Assembly: GCA_900100245.1 (NCBI GenBank)
Contig: FNEU01000001.1
Span: forward strand, 62,001-126,000
Source of the DNA: Lachnospiraceae bacterium G41
Lineage (GTDB): Bacteria; Bacillota; Clostridia; Lachnospirales; Lachnospiraceae
Direction: 5' to 3'
DNA length: 64,000 bases
This document shows, in pieces, positions 1 through 8,940 of this stretch. The notes under the pieces are model-generated. The model did not search any database, was not told the DNA's origin, and saw only the letters and a list, made by a program, of their open reading frames with translations. The position numbers and the translations under genes are program-made. Position 1 is the stretch's first letter. Every line of letters starts with the position of its first letter.

Positions 1-2432
1 CAATATGTATCAAATATCTGATCAATAATCGTAAATTTAGAAAGCTTTGAAGGATCAAGTGTCTTTTCGTTAAAGAGAACACTCTGTGTTTCCTTAACCT
101 TTGGCTCTCTCTTGCCCGGAGAATTGAATCTGTCAACTTTCTTAAAGATATTGTCTACATTTTCAATCTTAGGAGAAACTGCTTCGTCATCTGTATCTTT
201 GTCAAAATCTTTTACTCTGAAAGTAAATTTGGATTTTTTAGGAGCTTCTTCATCAGACTTTATAGGTGCGATGTCATCATTTAATACTGAGTATTTCTTA
301 TCTGTATCTTTTAGTCTGTCTGCATCATCTTCCTTGGACTTTTCTCCTACGCGGTCGATAATATCTGCTTTTCTCTCCCATTTGAAATCCATGAAAGCAT
401 CATTTGAATCATCTTCAGCTTCATCGGTAACAAATGTATTCTCGGGAATATCGCTTAATTTAACGATCATACCCTTGTTTTCCTGCTCGATTTCGCTTTC
501 TTCCTTGTTTTCGATGGAAGCAAGCCATTCCTCGAACATATTAACGGGAGCTGCCTGCTCTTCTACTGCTTCAGGAGCAGCTTCTTCAACGTTTGCTTCA
601 ATTTGAGGCTGAGGATTTTCTGCAGTTGCTTGGGCGGGAATTTCTTCATTCGCCTCTTCTTCCTTGGCAAAGATATCTTTCTTAAATAAAGCAGAACCGT
701 GCGAACCTGTATCTGCAGGCTTTTCTTCTTCGGTTTCTTTCTTTTCGGCTGCAATTCTGTTCTTAAGTAATGCAGAACCTCTGGTACCGTCCTTATCTAC
801 ATAATCATCAGCTGTTTCTTTATGAGAACCGATTCTTGTAGTAAGAAGTGATGAGCCGTGTGAAGAAGCATCATAAGAACCTTCGTCCTTAATATTTCCT
901 TCGGACTCTGCGAAAGACGTAACTTTGTTAAAGGATGTCTTTTCACCGGCTAATGTACTCTTAGGCGCTTCAGCCGTTGTATCTTTTGTAAGGAAATCGT
1001 AATTGGGACTGTCCTTTTTAATTACAACATTCTTGGGTGCCTCAGCGGTCGTATCGTTTCTTAAGAAATCATAATCATCCTTAGGCGCTTCGGTTTCGGC
1101 AACTGCTTCTTTTACCTCTTCTGCAGTTTCCTCATTCTCTTCAACGTCGTTCTTCATACGTTCTTCAAACTTGTCGTATTTAGACTTGTAAGGAATCGTT
1201 GTGATATGATTCATAAATTCATTGTTGGGCTTGTCTTTCTTTTCTTCAAACTCAACAGTGAATTCTTTTGATTTGTCATTCTGAGCATAGGCTTCGGATT
1301 CGGCAGCGGTCATATTGTTAACGCCCTTCTTGCCGTCATAGCCTTTTTGTACTACAAGGTCACCCTTCTTGAAATTCTTTTCAAAAGGTTCGGGAGCTCT
1401 TTCAAGAGGCTTTTCTTCTTCCTTGAACTTAAACGCACTCGGAATAAGCTCATTCTTTGTAAGAGCTTCACTGATTGTCTTATTTAAAATCTCAACGAGG
1501 AATTCTCCGTTTGTAATTCTAACTTCACTCTTTGCGGGATGAACATTTACGTCGATTCCGAAAGGATCGAGATCTATAAACAGAACAACAAAAGGAAACT
1601 TATGCTGCATCAGGAAATTGCGGTATCCTTCTTCAATTCCTCTTGTAACATAATCATTCTTGATATATCTGCCGTTTATAAAATAATATTCTCCGGATCT
1701 GGAAGGACGGCATAAATCAGGCTTTGAAATATAGCCCTGAATCTTTATGAAATCATCCTCATAATCCAAAGGAATAAGACCCTCGTGAATTTCTTTTCCG
1801 AAGAGTCTGAAAATAACGTCCTTAAGATTGCCTGAACCGTTAGTCTGAATCTTAACCTGACCGTTTACAAGAAGCTGGAAGGCAATAGAAGGATTGGAAA
1901 GAACAAGTTCTTCCATCATTTCAATAATCTTCGTAGCTTCGGACGAAGGTGAATTTAAGAATTTTTTACGAGCGGGAACATTAAAGAATAAATCTTTTAC
2001 GATAATTGTCGTACCTTCGGGAGCGCCTGTTTTAATCATCTCAATTACGCTGCCGCAGTCAAGATTAATTTTGGTGCCCATTAAATCTGTTTTGGTACGG
2101 GTAATCATCTCGGTATGAGAAACGGAAGCGATACTTGCCAAAGCCTCGCCTCTGAATCCTAATGTACTTAGGAAGAATAAGTCTTCGCTTGATACAATTT
2201 TACTTGTAGCATGACGAAGAAAAGCTGTCGGAACGTCTTCATATGAAATTCCGCAACCGTCATCTGTAACCCTGATATAATCGATACCGCCGCCTTTTAT
2301 CTCAACGGAAATGTTTTTTGAACCCGCGTCAATCGCGTTCTCAACAAGTTCCTTGACAACGTTCACCGGTCTCTCGATTACTTCCCCCGCAGCAATCTTG
2401 TTAATAGTAAGATTATCAAGAATTCTGATCAT
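1..2432 (-). CDS. mutL: DNA mismatch repair protein MutL, C-terminus beyond left edge
   Basis: MutL couples MutS mismatch recognition to strand incision. The frame is open from an ATG at 2432 to base 1 (810 codons, no stop in the window). GHKL ATPase motifs are clear near the N-terminus: ELVENAIDAGS (about residues 28-38), DDGCGI (57-62) and GFRGEAL (92-98). The N-terminal domain ends near residue 330. An acidic, low-complexity linker follows to about residue 795, and the last visible residues (FTIIDQIFDTY) match the start of the C-terminal dimerisation/endonuclease domain. Bacillus MutL is about 630 residues with a linker of roughly 100, so this linker is extraordinarily long. It holds short repeats (YDFL..DTTAEAPK twice; (H/R)GS(A/S)L three times). 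The start overlaps the mutS stop as ATGA, so translation is probably coupled. Identity is certain; total length is not visible. Confidence 0.95.
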   Translation of the reverse strand, partial: MIRILDNLTINKIAAGEVIERPVNVVKELVENAIDAGSKNISVEIKGGGIDYIRVTDDGCGISYEDVPTAFLRHATSKIVSSEDLFFLSTLGFRGEALASIASVSHTEMITRTKTDLMGTKINLDCGSVIEMIKTGAPEGTTIIVKDLFFNVPARKKFLNSPSSEATKIIEMMEELVLSNPSIAFQLLVNGQVKIQTNGSGNLKDVIFRLFGKEIHEGLIPLDYEDDFIKIQGYISKPDLCRPSRSGEYYFINGRYIKNDYVTRGIEEGYRNFLMQHKFPFVVLFIDLDPFGIDVNVHPAKSEVRITNGEFLVEILNKTISEALTKNELIPSAFKFKEEEKPLERAPEPFEKNFKKGDLVVQKGYDGKKGVNNMTAAESEAYAQNDKSKEFTVEFEEKKDKPNNEFMNHITTIPYKSKYDKFEERMKNDVEENEETAEEVKEAVAETEAPKDDYDFLRNDTTAEAPKNVVIKKDSPNYDFLTKDTTAEAPKSTLAGEKTSFNKVTSFAESEGNIKDEGSYDASSHGSSLLTTRIGSHKETADDYVDKDGTRGSALLKNRIAAEKKETEEEKPADTGSHGSALFKKDIFAKEEEANEEIPAQATAENPQPQIEANVEEAAPEAVEEQAAPVNMFEEWLASIENKEESEIEQENKGMIVKLSDIPENTFVTDEAEDDSNDAFMDFKWERKADIIDRVGEKSKEDDADRLKDTDKKYSVLNDDIAPIKSDEEAPKKSKFTFRVKDFDKDTDDEAVSPKIENVDNIFKKVDRFNSPGKREPKVKETQSVLFNEKTLDPSKLSKFTIIDQIFDTY

Positions 2433-5113
2433 AGTTTTATCCTATTTTTGCATTTACATTGTAGCCTGTATAAAGTGTTTAACCCGTCAAGAGGAGTCAT
2501 GTTTGTAACATCGATTTCCTCAATCTCTTTTATTATATCAGAATCTGACGTCATGTCCAATAGAGTTAACTGACCTAAATCAACTTCGTCGTAATTTTTT
2601 TGCTTTTTTTTCGTCATATTTGGACTAATTGTGACGATATCTTGCATTTTATCGATAATATCGTTCTCGGAAAGCTTCGATAAAATGTCTTTCGCACGTT
2701 CAATTACCATATCCGGAACGCCTGCAAGCTTGGCAACCTGAATACCGTAACTTCGATCCGTACCGCCTTTTATAATTTTCCTTAAGAAAATAATATCGTC
2801 GCCCTCTTCCTGAACGGCTATGCAGTAATTGTTTACGTTCGGAATTTTACCCTCTAATTCAGTCAATTCATGGTAATGCGTGGCAAATAATGTTTTTGCT
2901 CCTAAAAGTTTCTGGTTTGCAATATGCTCAATTACAGCCCATGCAATCGACAAACCGTCGAGTGTAGATGTTCCTCGACCGATTTCATCAAGGATTAAAA
3001 GTGAATCCTTGGTGGCATTTCTGAGAATATTGGAAACTTCATTCATTTCAATCATGAATGTAGACTGCCCGCTCGCCAGATCGTCCGATGCTCCGACTCT
3101 CGTAAATATCCTGTCGCATACACAGATACTTGCTTCTTTTGCCGGTACGAAACTTCCTATCTGAGCCATTAATACAATAAGCGCAGTCTGTCTCATATAA
3201 GTCGATTTACCAGCCATATTGGGGCCTGTAATAATCGAAATATTATTCTTTTTATTGTCTAAAATCGTATCGTTTGGAATAAACTGATTATCCGGAACCA
3301 TCTTTTCAACTACGGGATGACGGCCTTCTTTGATATTAATCGAGCCTTTTTCGTTAATCGAAGGTCTGACATATCTGTTTGTCTCTGCTACATACGCCAA
3401 AGAGCATAAAACATCAAGATAAGCCATCGCCTTGGCCGTTTTCTGAATACGCAGAAGGTTTTCTTCGATGTAGACGCGTATTTCCTCAAATAAGTCGTAT
3501 TCGAGGCTGCAGAGCTTATCCTGTGCGTTTAAAATGGTATCTTCTAATTCTTTAAGTTTCTCCGTTGTATATCTTTCGGCATTTGATAAAGTCTGTTTTC
3601 TGATATAATCCGCAGGAACCATATCAATAAATGATTTTGAAACTTCAAGATAATAACCGAATACTTTATTATATTTAACTTTTAAAGTCTTAATTCCGGT
3701 TTTCTCTTTTTCTTCGGATTCAAGATTTGCAAGCCAGTTCTTGCCTTCGGACTTTGAAACTCTTAAATAATCAACGCCCTCGTTGTATCCGTTCTTAATA
3801 ATACCGCCTTCTCTTACAGAGAAAGGAGGATCTTCTTCGATTGCTTTATCAATCTTTTCAAATATATCGATTAATGGGTCGATATCGTCGAATATCTTTT
3901 TTATGAGGGGAACATCACAATTCATGATTGCTTTTTTGATATAAGGTACCATTCTTAAGGATTCTTTTATGGCAATCATATCCTTGGGATTTAAAGTTTT
4001 GTAACTTACCTTTGCAAGCAGTCTTTCAAGGTCGTATACGGGATTTAAACATTCCCTGATTTCTTCCCTTACGATGATTTCGCTGTAAAGATATTCGACC
4101 GCATCAAGACGCTCAATTATCATATCTTTATTGACCAGCGGCTGTTGAGTCATGCTTCGAAGAGTTCTTGCACCCATGGCGGTTTTTGTTTTATCAAGAA
4201 CCCATAAAAGAGAGCCCCATTTCTGCTTGTCTCTCATCGTTTCTGTCAATTCAAGATTACGTCTGGTCGCATTGTCGATTACCATATAAACGCCGTTTGA
4301 TGTAGGAGTTAAAGTGGTAATATGATTAAGCGAAATCATCTGTGTCTCGTTTAAATACATTAAAAGAGAACCTGCTGCAATTACGCCGAGTTCGTAATCA
4401 TCTATGCCCATTCCTATAAGAGAATGAACCTTAAAATGCTTTAAAAGCGTCTTCTTGCAATTGTTTTCTTCGAAGTGATAATCATCAAGACAGGAAACCT
4501 GTGTACCGATTTTGCTTCTTAAATCTTCTATATCAAGCCCTGCGGATAAAAACTGCGAATTGCAGATTATCTCGGCGGGTTTGTATTTAAAGATTTCATC
4601 ATAAAGATTTTTAATACCCGAAATTTCGGACAAATAAAAATCACCTGTAGTTACATCACATACAGAAAAGCCGATATTGTTCATGTAAATAAAAACAGAC
4701 ATAAGATAATTATTTCTGTTTTCATCAAGTGACATTGAATCAATATTGGTTCCCGGCGTAACTATACGGGTGACTTCTCTTTTAACAAGGCCTTTTGCAA
4801 GCTTAGGGTCTTCAACCTGCTCGCAAATGGCTACTTTATAACCGTTTTCGATTAATTTTGTAATATAAGGCTCTACGGAATGAAAAGGAACTCCGCACAT
4901 CGGAGCTCTGTCTTCAAGACCGCAGTTTTTGCCTGTTAATGTGATTTCAAGAACCTTGGAAGCTATTAATGCATCATCAAAAAACATCTCGTAGAAATCT
5001 CCGAGACGGTAAAAAAGAATACAGTCTTTATATTGTTCTTTTGTTTCAAGGTATTTCTGCATCATCGGTGAAAGTGCCGAGATGTTTTTCATTACCTCAT
5101 CATATGATGACAT
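2429..5113 (-). CDS. mutS: DNA mismatch repair protein MutS
   Basis: MutS is the mismatch recognition ATPase. At 894 residues it is of normal size. The mismatch-wedging FYE motif is at residues 40-42 (GDFYEMF). The ABC-type ATPase domain has Walker A GPNMAGKST at 630-638, Walker B LLILDEIGRGTS near 705-716 and the histidine switch ATHYHEL near 744. The C-terminus carries a short acidic linker and helical tail as in other Firmicutes MutS. The ATG at 5113 has GGGGAG a few bases upstream, inside the 24-bp gap after miaB. The stop overlaps the mutL start (ATGA), so miaB-mutS-mutL is probably one transcript. Confidence 0.98.
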   Translation of the reverse strand: MSSYDEVMKNISALSPMMQKYLETKEQYKDCILFYRLGDFYEMFFDDALIASKVLEITLTGKNCGLEDRAPMCGVPFHSVEPYITKLIENGYKVAICEQVEDPKLAKGLVKREVTRIVTPGTNIDSMSLDENRNNYLMSVFIYMNNIGFSVCDVTTGDFYLSEISGIKNLYDEIFKYKPAEIICNSQFLSAGLDIEDLRSKIGTQVSCLDDYHFEENNCKKTLLKHFKVHSLIGMGIDDYELGVIAAGSLLMYLNETQMISLNHITTLTPTSNGVYMVIDNATRRNLELTETMRDKQKWGSLLWVLDKTKTAMGARTLRSMTQQPLVNKDMIIERLDAVEYLYSEIIVREEIRECLNPVYDLERLLAKVSYKTLNPKDMIAIKESLRMVPYIKKAIMNCDVPLIKKIFDDIDPLIDIFEKIDKAIEEDPPFSVREGGIIKNGYNEGVDYLRVSKSEGKNWLANLESEEKEKTGIKTLKVKYNKVFGYYLEVSKSFIDMVPADYIRKQTLSNAERYTTEKLKELEDTILNAQDKLCSLEYDLFEEIRVYIEENLLRIQKTAKAMAYLDVLCSLAYVAETNRYVRPSINEKGSINIKEGRHPVVEKMVPDNQFIPNDTILDNKKNNISIITGPNMAGKSTYMRQTALIVLMAQIGSFVPAKEASICVCDRIFTRVGASDDLASGQSTFMIEMNEVSNILRNATKDSLLILDEIGRGTSTLDGLSIAWAVIEHIANQKLLGAKTLFATHYHELTELEGKIPNVNNYCIAVQEEGDDIIFLRKIIKGGTDRSYGIQVAKLAGVPDMVIERAKDILSKLSENDIIDKMQDIVTISPNMTKKKQKNYDEVDLGQLTLLDMTSDSDIIKEIEEIDVTNMTPLDGLNTLYRLQCKCKNRIKL

Positions 5114-5137: not shown

Positions 5138-6604
5138 TTAAACCATTTCTCCGAAATAATAAAATCCTTTGCATTCAAGGCATTTGACATTAACTATCTT
5201 ACCGATTAAATCTGTATTGCCTTTAAAATGCACGATTGTATTGTTTTCAAGTCTTCCTGTCAGAAGGCTTTCATCCTGCTTATTTACTTCCTCAACCAGT
5301 ACTGGTAAGGTCTGACCTTCAATTTTTACAACCTGTTCTCTGGCTGTTTCCTGAACGCATTTAAGAACTCGGTCAAACTGTTCTTTTACGAATTCTTCCG
5401 ATACCTGAGGCATATCGGCCGCAGGCGTGCCTGTTCTTTTTGAATATATAAAAGTAAATGCGTTGTCAAATCCGACTTTTTTAATTACATCGATTGTATC
5501 GTCGACATCTTCCTTTGTTTCTCCCGGGAAACCAACGATAATATCGGTTGTAATCGAAATATCAGGTATTTCACGCCTTATTTTAAGTGCAAGATCAAGA
5601 TATTTTTCTTTGTCATAAACACGATTCATCTTCTTTAAAATCCTTGAACTTCCGGACTGAAGAGGCAAATGAATGTGATGACAAATCTTCTTTGAATTCT
5701 TAATTACTTCAATAAGCTCGTCGGATAAATCTTTTGGATGAGAAGTCATAAATCTGATTCTCTCAAGCCCTTCTATCTTTTCAACTCTTCTTAAAAGTTC
5801 AGCAAAAGATATAGGATTTTCAAGGTTTTTGCCATATGAATTTACATTCTGGCCCAAGAGCATTATTTCGATAACGCCGTCTTTTACGAGGTTTTCAATC
5901 TCTTTTATGATCTCATCTGCTTCTCTGCTTCTCTCTCTGCCACGAACATAAGGAACTATGCAGTAAGTACAGAAATTGTTGCAGCCAAACATTATATTAA
6001 CGCCTGATTTGTAAGGATATTTTCTGTCTACGGGAAGATTTTCGCAGATTACTTTTGTTTCATTCCAGTGGCTTACGATTGTATTGCCTTTCTTGTAAAG
6101 GTTAGCGTCGGAATCATCGAAATCCTTATTTTCGATACCTTCGTAAACATAAAAGAGATACTCTGCAAATCTGTAAATATTATGCGTTCCAAAGATAAGA
6201 TCTACAAAGCCGTAGCTTGTACAGAGTTTTTCTATTACACATTCTTCCTGAGTCATACAGCCGCAAAGAACAACCTTCATATCCGGGTTCTGCTTTTTAA
6301 AAGTTGAAAGTCTGCCGAGTCTTCCGTAAACCTTCTGATTGGCATTATCTCTGACCGAACATGTGTTATAAACTGTTAAATCTGCGTTTTCGTCTTCGAT
6401 TACGGTAAATCCCGCAGACTTCAAAATGCCCGAGATTTTTTCGGAATCCCTGGCATTCATCTGACAACCGAATGTTTCAACGCAAGCGGTTATATCTCTT
6501 TTCTTTTGTACTTTTAAATCGGCAACAACTTTTTTAAGAAGTTCGAGATATTTATATTGTCTTTCGAGTTCTTCTTTGTTATCGCAAGTTTCAAACTGAT
6601 TCAT
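5138..6604 (-). CDS. miaB: tRNA-2-methylthio-N6-dimethylallyladenosine synthase MiaB
   Basis: Radical-SAM methylthiotransferase that converts i6A37 to ms2i6A37 in tRNAs reading UNN codons. The N-terminal UPF0004 domain has its three cluster cysteines in TFGCQMN (C47), NTCSVRD (C82) and LCGCM (C116). The radical SAM motif GCNNFCTYC supplies C208, C212 and C215. A TRAM RNA-binding domain forms the last 70 or so residues. The 488-residue length includes an N-terminal extension of about 38 residues before the UPF0004 domain, common in Clostridia. Three bases separate it from upstream proA, and it leads directly into mutS. Confidence 0.96.
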   Translation of the reverse strand: MNQFETCDNKEELERQYKYLELLKKVVADLKVQKKRDITACVETFGCQMNARDSEKISGILKSAGFTVIEDENADLTVYNTCSVRDNANQKVYGRLGRLSTFKKQNPDMKVVLCGCMTQEECVIEKLCTSYGFVDLIFGTHNIYRFAEYLFYVYEGIENKDFDDSDANLYKKGNTIVSHWNETKVICENLPVDRKYPYKSGVNIMFGCNNFCTYCIVPYVRGRERSREADEIIKEIENLVKDGVIEIMLLGQNVNSYGKNLENPISFAELLRRVEKIEGLERIRFMTSHPKDLSDELIEVIKNSKKICHHIHLPLQSGSSRILKKMNRVYDKEKYLDLALKIRREIPDISITTDIIVGFPGETKEDVDDTIDVIKKVGFDNAFTFIYSKRTGTPAADMPQVSEEFVKEQFDRVLKCVQETAREQVVKIEGQTLPVLVEEVNKQDESLLTGRLENNTIVHFKGNTDLIGKIVNVKCLECKGFYYFGEMV

Positions 6605-6607
6605 TAT

Positions 6608-8086
6608 TTAACCTCTGACCTGACCGTTTCCGGTAATCTTATATTTGTATGAGGTTAACTCATTAAGTCCCATAGGTCCTCTGGCATGAAGCTTTTGCGT
6701 GGAAATGCCGATTTCCGCACCAAGGCCGAATTCAAAACCGTCGGTAAATCTCGTGGAAACATTTCTGTATACACATGCTGCATCAACACCCTTTAAGAAC
6801 TTCTCTGCAGTCTCATCATTTTCTGTAATAATACAATCTGAATGTCCTGTGTTATATTTGTTGATATGAGCGATTGCTTCTTCTACCGAATCAACGGTTT
6901 TAACCGAGATAATATAATCAAGATATTCCTTTGCGAAATCTTCTTCGGTAGCATCAACACAGTCGATAACTTCTTTTGTATCCTTATCACCGCGGATTTC
7001 AACATTTTTCTCTTTTAATTTCTTTGCCAATTTAGGAAGAAGTGCTTCTCTTACATCCTTATGAACTACCAAAGATTCGCATGCATTACATACACCGATT
7101 CTCTGAGTTTTTGCGTTGAAAATAATATTTACGGCCATATCGATATCTGCATCTTTATCTACATAAATATGGCAGTTTCCGCTTCCGGTTTCGATAACGG
7201 GAATAGTTGAATTGTTAACTACTGCCTTTATTAAGCCGGCACTTCCTCGGGGAATCAAAACATCAACATACTCATTCATCTTCATAAATTCGGTAGCGGT
7301 TTCTCTGTCTGTTTTTTCAATAAGCTGGATTGCATTTTCATCGATATTGTTCGCTTTTAAAACATCGCGGATAACCTTAGTAATCGCAAGGTTCGAATTA
7401 ATTGCATCTGAACCACCCTTTAAAATGCAGACATTTCCGGACTTAAAAGTCAGTGAAAATGCATCTGCGGTAACATTGGGTCTTGATTCGTAAATAATTC
7501 CGATTACGCCTAAAGGTACACTAACCTTAGTTATATGCATTCCGTTAGCCATAATCTTCGTATCAAGTAATTTATTTAAAGGATCTTCAAGTGCTGCAAC
7601 CTGACGGATGCCTTCGCTGATACCTTCAATTCTCTGTTCTGTCAATAAAAGTCTGTCCAAAAGACCGGCTTTCATATTTTCGGATACACCTTTATCATAA
7701 TCGATTTTATTCTGTGCGATGATGTAATTGCTTTCTTTTATGAGTGTATCTGCAATCAGTAAAAGAACATCATTTCTGGTCTTTTCATCAAGAAGACCGA
7801 TTGTATATTTCGCATTTTTAGCGTTTTTCCCTAATGTTTCAAGATACATGTCATTACCTCTTTGTTCGTTAACTGCCGCATCATGTTTTTCGCCAAGATT
7901 TGTGATGCTTCCGTCAGCTTCTTTTATATCAATGCTGTCAAGCTGTGATTTAAGATTGGCCCTGATATTTGCCACATAAGCCTGACGAAGATTCTTCTGT
8001 TCCTCGGCCTCCTCAGGTGTTAATCCGACATCCTGAGATTTATGATACAGTTCATTTATTCTGTTAATAAGTTTCTCAATTTCCAT
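6608..8086 (-). CDS. proA: DUF896 (YnzC-like) domain fused to glutamate-5-semialdehyde dehydrogenase ProA
   Basis: ProA reduces gamma-glutamyl phosphate to glutamate-5-semialdehyde, the second step of proline synthesis. This protein is 492 residues, against about 415 for ordinary ProA. Residues 1-64 match DUF896/YnzC: RINELYHKS, GLTPEEAEEQ and LRQAYVANIR are the typical two-helix pattern. The canonical ProA begins at Met80 (MYLETLGKNAKNA). The catalytic cysteine lies in RIGVCNACES. The frame is continuous with no frameshift needed. The ATG at 8086 has only a weak GAAG-type ribosome site, whereas Met80 (7849) is preceded at six bases by AGAGGT, so a shorter ProA may also be made. It follows proB by two bases. 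Fusion is seen directly; dual translation is inference. Confidence 0.93.
   Translation of the reverse strand: MEIEKLINRINELYHKSQDVGLTPEEAEEQKNLRQAYVANIRANLKSQLDSIDIKEADGSITNLGEKHDAAVNEQRGNDMYLETLGKNAKNAKYTIGLLDEKTRNDVLLLIADTLIKESNYIIAQNKIDYDKGVSENMKAGLLDRLLLTEQRIEGISEGIRQVAALEDPLNKLLDTKIMANGMHITKVSVPLGVIGIIYESRPNVTADAFSLTFKSGNVCILKGGSDAINSNLAITKVIRDVLKANNIDENAIQLIEKTDRETATEFMKMNEYVDVLIPRGSAGLIKAVVNNSTIPVIETGSGNCHIYVDKDADIDMAVNIIFNAKTQRIGVCNACESLVVHKDVREALLPKLAKKLKEKNVEIRGDKDTKEVIDCVDATEEDFAKEYLDYIISVKTVDSVEEAIAHINKYNTGHSDCIITENDETAEKFLKGVDAACVYRNVSTRFTDGFEFGLGAEIGISTQKLHARGPMGLNELTSYKYKITGNGQVRG
7847..7861 (-). promoter_or_regulatory. Ribosome binding site and second start inside the DUF896-proA frame
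   Basis: On the minus strand AGAGGT, then AATGAC, then ATG lies in frame in the linker between the DUF896 and ProA domains. It is better placed than the site for the annotated start at 8086. It looks like the original proA ribosome site, retained after a stop codon between two genes was lost, and may still produce ProA alone. Confidence 0.55.
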
Positions 8087-8088
8087 TT

Positions 8089-8940
8089 TTATTCTTCACT
8101 TAATTTAGCTACAAAGTCTACAAGTTCGAAATTATCATCCTTATCGGCTACAAAAAGCGTACCGAAATCTCTTCCGTCCATAATTCTGTGAAGGATATGA
8201 ATATCATCGGAATTTGCAATAATCATATCTGCACCGGATTTGGTAACTATCTGGGCTGCATGAATCTTCGTGTTCATACCGCCTGTGCCGATGGATGAAC
8301 CTGTCTCGGCCTTACCCATATTAATGATTTTATCATCGATTTTTTCGACAATACTGATAAATTTCGCATCGGGATTGGTTCTTGGGTTGTCGGAGAAAAG
8401 TCCGTCAATATCTGATAAAAGAATTAAAAGATCAGCTCCGATTAATGATGCAACAATGGCTGAAAGCGTATCGTTATCACCGAATTTGATTTCGAATGTT
8501 GAAATTGTATCGTTTTCATTTACGATCGGGATAACGCCAAGCTCCAACAGCTGTTCAAATGTATTGTGTGCATTAAATCTGTTAAGGTCGTTTGTAATCG
8601 TATCCTTAGTCAAAAGAACCTGAGCACAAACCTGATTGTATTCAGCAAATATCTTCTGATATACCATCATAAGTCTTGCCTGTCCTACAGCGGCACAAGC
8701 CTGCTTTGCAGCGATACTGTGCTTTGCATCTTTAAGATGTAAAGCTCTCTGGCCTACAGATATTGCACCTGAGGATACAAGAATAACATCCTTGCCCATA
8801 TTTCTGATGTTGCAAAGTTCTCTGACTAATGTCTCAAGTCTTGTATAATCAATTCCGCCTGTTTCGGGATGTGTAAGACTTGATGAACCAATCTTAACTA
8901 CAATTCTTTTTTTATCTTTAATAGCTTCTCTGAAATTCAT
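8089..8940 (-). CDS. proB: Glutamate 5-kinase ProB, short form without PUA domain
   Basis: ProB phosphorylates glutamate to gamma-glutamyl phosphate, the first committed step of proline synthesis. The amino-acid kinase fold is complete: VVKIGSSSLT at the N-terminus, LVSSGAISVG, the substrate segment VNENDTIST, FGDNDTLSA, and the nucleotide-binding IGTGGMNTK. It ends at 283 residues without the C-terminal PUA domain of E. coli ProB (367 residues). Forms without PUA are known in other bacteria, so this is a natural short form and not truncation. proA follows at once. Feedback inhibition by proline is likely from family knowledge but not visible here. Confidence 0.96.
   Translation of the reverse strand: MNFREAIKDKKRIVVKIGSSSLTHPETGGIDYTRLETLVRELCNIRNMGKDVILVSSGAISVGQRALHLKDAKHSIAAKQACAAVGQARLMMVYQKIFAEYNQVCAQVLLTKDTITNDLNRFNAHNTFEQLLELGVIPIVNENDTISTFEIKFGDNDTLSAIVASLIGADLLILLSDIDGLFSDNPRTNPDAKFISIVEKIDDKIINMGKAETGSSIGTGGMNTKIHAAQIVTKSGADMIIANSDDIHILHRIMDGRDFGTLFVADKDDNFELVDFVAKLSEE

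Follow-up and report, generated by a model that had tools for sequence, protein, structure and literature searches.

A rare DUF896-ProA gene fusion in Lachnospiraceae keeps the ribosome site and start codon of the ancestral proA gene within its frame

The window analysed here, i.e., the whole stretch of 64,000 nucleotides from contig FNEU01000001.1 of Lachnospiraceae bacterium G41 (genome G000), carries a single ATG-started frame on the minus strand (6608..8086, 492 aa) that encodes a DUF896 domain followed by a whole ProA. This DUF896-ProA frame is a real, lineage-specific and rare gene fusion present in a small group of gut bacteria. According to the explanation that we favour with fair confidence, two genes were joined as a consequence of their position, the start of the downstream gene was kept inside the new frame, and both fused and free ProA are probably made.

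The N-terminal part of the protein (residues 5-60; 7907..8074, minus strand) matched the DUF896 (UPF0291/YnzC) model PF05979 of Pfam with an E-value of 2.2e-19 and a score of 69.5 bits against a cut-off of 24.2, confirming the DUF896 domain that the initial annotation had read in residues 1-64. It forms one of the 49 rows of a DUF896 alignment containing 12 invariant columns. The domain is followed by a linker (residues 65-79; 7850..7894, minus strand), predicted to be helical and continuous with the first helix of ProA, and then by ProA itself (glutamate-5-semialdehyde dehydrogenase, residues 80-492; 6611..7849, minus strand), identified with the NCBIfam model NF001221 and with Foldseek. NF001221 matched residues 80-491 (E 1.2e-177) over profile positions 5-417 of 418, with 590.8 bits for an equivalog cut-off of 289, and an aldehyde dehydrogenase family match (Pfam) runs from residue 86 on; ordinary ProA does begin at Met80 in the same open frame, as initially annotated. 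The cysteine C333 in the GVCNACE stretch, which we take to be the catalytic cysteine, is present and conserved in at least 90% of 30 aligned rows. In the host genome (2.59 Mb in 22 contigs, 99.7% complete), a profile search with PF05979 matched this frame only: DUF896 is not a small stand-alone protein there as in Bacillus, being fused and without a second copy. Searching the same genome with the whole protein gave one other match, 30% identical and located in a frame of 882 residues, probably AdhE, and the fusion is therefore the only ProA found in the host.

Upstream of the fusion lies proB (8089..8940, minus strand), the stop codon of which ends 2 nt before the fusion's ATG. The ProB of the window (283 aa) matches positions 1-257 only of the 363-position ProB model and, since the match ends there, seems to be without the C-terminal PUA domain. 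The downstream neighbour is a miaB-like radical SAM gene (5138..6604, minus strand; Pfam Radical_SAM, UPF0004 and TRAM), which is part of a conserved cluster, and the next gene of this cluster is mutS (2429..5113, minus strand), whose homologues occupy the same place in relatives; both genes were named by sequence reading. In one relative (G424, L065 5499-6876), miaB is found in two overlapping frames, as a result of a frameshift or of an assembly error.

In a survey of the genus, 31 genomes were searched and ProB, DUF896, Fau (5-formyl-THF, or 5-formyltetrahydrofolate, cyclo-ligase), ProA, MiaB and MutS were located by script in the fetched loci. DUF896 is fused to ProA in four of these genomes, namely the window's own, G412 (L062), G409 (L063) and G407 (L106), the latter being truncated at a contig boundary beyond residue 219 with its junction whole. 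In six others DUF896 stands directly before proA with a stop (G417, G424, G408, G413, G416, G403), in eight it is fused to Fau (G120, G415, G421, G425, G399, G406, G418 and G422, the assignment of G422 resting on coordinates), and in five it is separate with fau present (G400, G401, G404, G410, G411). No DUF896 match was obtained in two genus genomes (G398, G423), the junction is missing from the assembly of G402, and ProA was not found in five genomes (G397, G405, G414, G419, G420), of which G419 is 96% complete and the others 69-83%. Neither ProA nor DUF896 was matched in G419, where they have perhaps been lost or are missing from the assembly.

The junction is open in the three nearest relatives (G412, G409 and G407, 92-97% identical), and a stop is present in the next ones (G417, 86% identical, G424 and G408); these stop-bearing junctions are read as the older unfused state. 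This is illustrated by the junction DNA of the fused G000, GAACAAAGAGGTAATGACATG, and of the unfused G424, GAATAAAGAGGATAAAAATATG, between which the stop codon touching the ribosome site was lost and AGAGG was retained. At the scale of the family, a junction query of 149 residues gave matches in 339 of 397 genomes; among the matches listed, the window's own genome is the only one to cover the full query with no stop, and in five genomes (G149, G002, G269, G261, G224) the full-length match contains one or two stops. The same query matched six of 398 genomes of the phylum at 1e-12, the window's genome alone being open across the junction. A wide spread of the DUF896-ProA fusion was rejected on the basis of these two queries, which a very distant fusion could escape. 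Besides, the fusion is unmentioned in the excerpts retrieved from the literature on DUF896, YnzC, UPF0291 and gamma-glutamyl phosphate reductase domain fusions.

Substitution rates indicate that both halves of the fusion are under purifying selection. Across the six pairwise comparisons of fused species, dN/dS ranges over 0.00-0.08 in the DUF896 half, for a dS of 0.25-1.9, and 0.02-0.08 in the ProA half (to residue 219 only for the pairs with G407), the linker being too short for a firm estimate. The AlphaFold2 model of the fusion, built with 30 aligned rows, reached a mean confidence of 85.9. Its DUF896 part, covered by only four of these rows, is predicted as a hairpin with helices at 3-19 and 24-50 (confidence 76-84 over residues 1-60), which may correspond to the two-helix hairpin of YnzC. 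The model further shows two short strands and a helix extending from residue 64 to 96 through the linker into ProA, with confidence blocks of 73 and 65 over residues 61-80. Considering conservation together with this moderate-confidence model, DUF896 appears to be folded within the fusion.

The linker DNA contains the Shine-Dalgarno motif AGAGGT (7856-7861, minus strand), followed after six bases by the ATG of Met80 (7847-7849, minus strand), exactly as first reported for this frame. This ATG is the ancestral proA start, as six unfused relatives have the ATGTAT start of their proA at the same alignment position, and AGAGG is also found upstream of proA in the unfused G417, G424 and G408. The strength of a start was computed as the duplex energy with the common 16S tail. 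On this scale, Met80 scores -7.2 kcal/mol vs. -3.9 kcal/mol for the full-length start in G000, and -7.2 vs. -1.5 in G412, G409 and G407, in agreement with the initial view that Met80 is the better site. A background of 49 ORFs (at least 100 aa, non-overlapping), picked by length in the window and uncurated, provided 443 internal ATGs, of which 13 reach -7.2 and 72 reach -3.9; the first starts of these ORFs are at least as strong as -7.2 in 16 cases and as -3.9 in 37. Since an in-frame ATG at residue 138 scores -6.5, energy alone does not prove the use of Met80. The proA starts of the six unfused relatives score -5.8, -5.8, -6.9, -7.7, -8.0 and -7.3, so that the fused site is of equal strength, with no gain.

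Codons 76-85, which extend from the ribosome site through codon six of ProA, are identical in all four fused species and constitute the longest identical run within the 219 codons compared. Among the degenerate codons whose residue is invariant, 106 of 194 are also invariant as codons. The residue-specific rates of the nine degenerate ones that cover the site give a product of 0.0019, and fully invariant stretches of nine codons were found at two of 186 positions, both overlapping the Met80 site. Because the species are few and three of the four are closely related, the statistics of this run are weak, and codon conservation may be counted as support for the site, not as proof. Indeed, these few species with three near relatives would also suit an explanation that we regard as possible but rather improbable, in which translation yields the full-length fusion alone, the internal AGAGGT...ATG is an undecayed relic and the likeness of the codons is due to chance or to amino-acid constraint. 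Conservation of RGND in the linker extends to the amino-acid level, and no strong ATG was found in seven DUF896-Fau junctions of the sister clade (120 nt scanned after DUF896), where the fused product alone seems viable. Against a relic stand the complete lack of synonymous change over the ten codons despite the dS seen in the DUF896 half, the low product of the residue-specific rates, and the place of the Met80 site in the upper third of the first starts of the window. A start retained at Met80 is thus preferred, and a second, free ProA is plausible because the proA ribosome site was inherited. The earlier proposal of a fused and a free ProA is in this respect likely, the second product being a prediction from the kept site.

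The fusion's own start, for its part, has a weak ribosome site. The distance from the proB stop to the fusion's ATG, 2 nt in the window, is 1 nt in G412, G409 and G407, and 39, 7 and 10 nt separate proB from DUF896 in the nearest unfused relatives G417, G424 and G408, respectively. A 2-nt gap also occurs outside the clade, in G120, G418 and G400, without a DUF896-ProA fusion. In a published study, reinitiation after a stop drops steeply with distance and overlapping genes are stressed, whereas proB and the fusion do not overlap (PMC10666635). Ribosomes finishing proB would restart on the fusion and yield full-length DUF896-ProA, of about 54 kDa by length, and other ribosomes would load at the internal AGAGGT and yield free ProA, of about 45 kDa. 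Hence, the full-length output may follow the translation of ProB, and free ProA may be made through its own entry site. The nearest solved structures returned by Foldseek are ProA proteins, with 1o20 as the best PDB match and 8zok, an "EcGPR tetramer," among them. Fused and free subunits could coexist within one ProA tetramer; through such mixing the cell may tolerate the appendage, and DUF896 would keep its own job from the N-terminus of ProA.

As regards the origin of the fusion, the gene order proB-DUF896-fau-proA-miaB is found in many members of the family, with mutS next in, e.g., L069, L079, L085, L112 and L114. DUF896 is widespread in the family, with a match in 302 of 397 sampled genomes. 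Among the best 30 of these 302 loci (L002-L031, taken by score and not drawn at random), fau lies directly downstream of DUF896 in 22, proA in three and miaB in one, and four have none of the searched genes within 1.5 kb on each side. In the window's clade, fau is absent from the gap between DUF896 and proA. It is found elsewhere in G000, adjoining a D-Tyr-tRNA deacylase gene (Pfam), and a frame matching D-Tyr-tRNA deacylase by eye adjoins fau in the fused G407 and in the unfused G417 and G408. As fused and unfused genomes share this neighbor of fau, its relocation seems older than the fusion. The positional origin would then consist of two steps, fau leaving a gap between DUF896 and proA, and the stop being lost afterward. 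The loss of a stop between neighboring genes, proposed by the initial annotation, is thereby supported, and it has to be completed by the usual presence of fau between the two genes. More than one change may have been needed, since the frames of DUF896 and proA differ in four of the six adjacent unfused relatives (G424, G408, G416, G403); they are the same, with one or more stops between, in G417 and G413.

A ProA tree of 33 rows, from which the fusion columns were left out, placed the four fused rows and G402 inside a 100/100 clade also containing the unfused G417, G408 and G424. Support is as low as 62/22 for the branch grouping G000 with the remaining fused rows plus G402, and the fused label requires two changes on this tree if G402 is counted as unfused. 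The eight DUF896-Fau genomes form one clade (100/98), sister to the window's clade. From this placing, DUF896-ProA and DUF896-Fau are separate events.

The DUF896-Fau fusions resemble DUF896-ProA in that the C-terminus of DUF896 is joined to the next gene of the same neighborhood. In G120 (L048 742-1524) DUF896 is in frame with Fau, as in seven further genus genomes. A DUF896-Fau query against the same 397 family genomes, with a strict cut-off of 1e-30, matched seven, of which G120, G236 and G344 are without a stop and four others contain one or more. The frames of G236 (L157 1432-2268) and G344 (L158 1438-2211), in which both domains were confirmed by Pfam, belong to two other genera of the family, and DUF896-Fau may hence have several origins. 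In addition, Fau shares one frame with a FAD-dependent protein (PF21688) in L086 1601-3871, which is another fusion of this neighborhood. Apart from the partner, the two types of DUF896 fusion differ by the internal start: in the seven sister-clade junctions, only one start codon is strong, a TTG of G120 that lies further in (-7.5). This contrast is not absolute, since in G236 a GTG close to the beginning of Fau reaches -7.4, and an inner start may persist there.

Because DUF896 fuses to whichever gene follows it, a positional fusion is preferred to a new regulation of ProA. The initial annotation had suggested that an RNA- or ribosome-linked module brings new regulation to proline synthesis, a suggestion that is not supported, since DUF896 has fau as a fusion partner too, and ProA is not singled out by it. 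A link of DUF896 to the ribosome or to RNA was rejected as well, on a profile search of the PDB. A profile of 49 DUF896 sequences finds PDB 2hep (4e-19, over 56 of 61 positions), and the PDB search with this profile up to an E-value of 1 returned seven sequences, of which only the three YnzC entries are clear, the remaining matches being at 0.02 or above, with ribosomal eL13 at 0.2 as one of them. It is improbable that DUF896 was recruited as a regulatory or tethering module, sensing stress or binding a partner and altering the activity or the place of ProA. Both halves and their linkage are kept in four species, the single helix predicted at residues 64-96 could transmit movement, and DUF896 is often found in the proline/folate gene neighborhood of the family; nevertheless, the Fau fusions make it unspecific for ProA, and the retained start would leave some ProA without the domain. 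Similarly, we consider it doubtful that DUF896 is a portable module of this neighborhood in Lachnospiraceae, acting on or beside the product of the following gene. If this were the case, the site of action of the free DUF896 protein would be revealed by the Fau and ProA fusions, and the number of enzyme subunits carrying DUF896 would depend on the proportions of fused and free ProA. As for an assembly or sequencing error concealing a stop, the fused relatives G412, G409 and G407 are metagenome assemblies and miaB is split in G424, but the junction is open in four assemblies with differing junction DNA and dN/dS is low on either side of it, so that an error is most improbable and was ruled out.

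Published work places DUF896 in various contexts. In B. pumilus, ynzC appears in a table row labelled lexA/SOS, with values of 0.65 and 8.85 (PMC3896406). The one item found on an RNA link is a co-occurrence study, which lists ynzC with the genes co-evolving with polC and groups YnzC with genes involved in RNA metabolism as well as in other functions (PMC3814617). One entry of an S. mutans MecA interactome table is a DUF896 protein (PMC10845952). In S. pneumoniae, Spr1327 shares 48% identity with YnzC and was treated among potentially essential genes (PMC4143570). No function for DUF896 was found in the retrieved parts of the literature on DUF896, YnzC and UPF0291. The SOS link initially cited for this domain is a Bacillus context; here, 26 of the 30 best-scoring family loci lie beside fau, proA or miaB. 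Two fusions with metabolic neighbors, together with the frequent place beside proB, fau or proA, provide a concrete context for testing DUF896.

Compared with known systems, the N-terminus of the fusion is the same domain as YnzC/UPF0291 of B. subtilis (2hep, 3bhp, 2jvd), which is a free small protein in that species, whereas in G000 it is joined to ProA and encoded after proB. P5CS, the eukaryotic fusion of ProB and ProA, entries of which are among the matches, likewise has a domain on the N-terminus of its ProA part. However, P5CS joins two steps of one pathway, while a small helical domain is joined here and proB remains separate. The case described here is a fusion that keeps the start of the downstream gene, beside a sister fusion whose scanned junctions showed no strong internal ATG. 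Genes of the rpn type have an internal start giving a full and a short product, according to PMC10327210. Their short products are antitoxins, shown by experiment, and that of the fusion is predicted; both have in common an in-frame internal ribosome site within a longer ORF.
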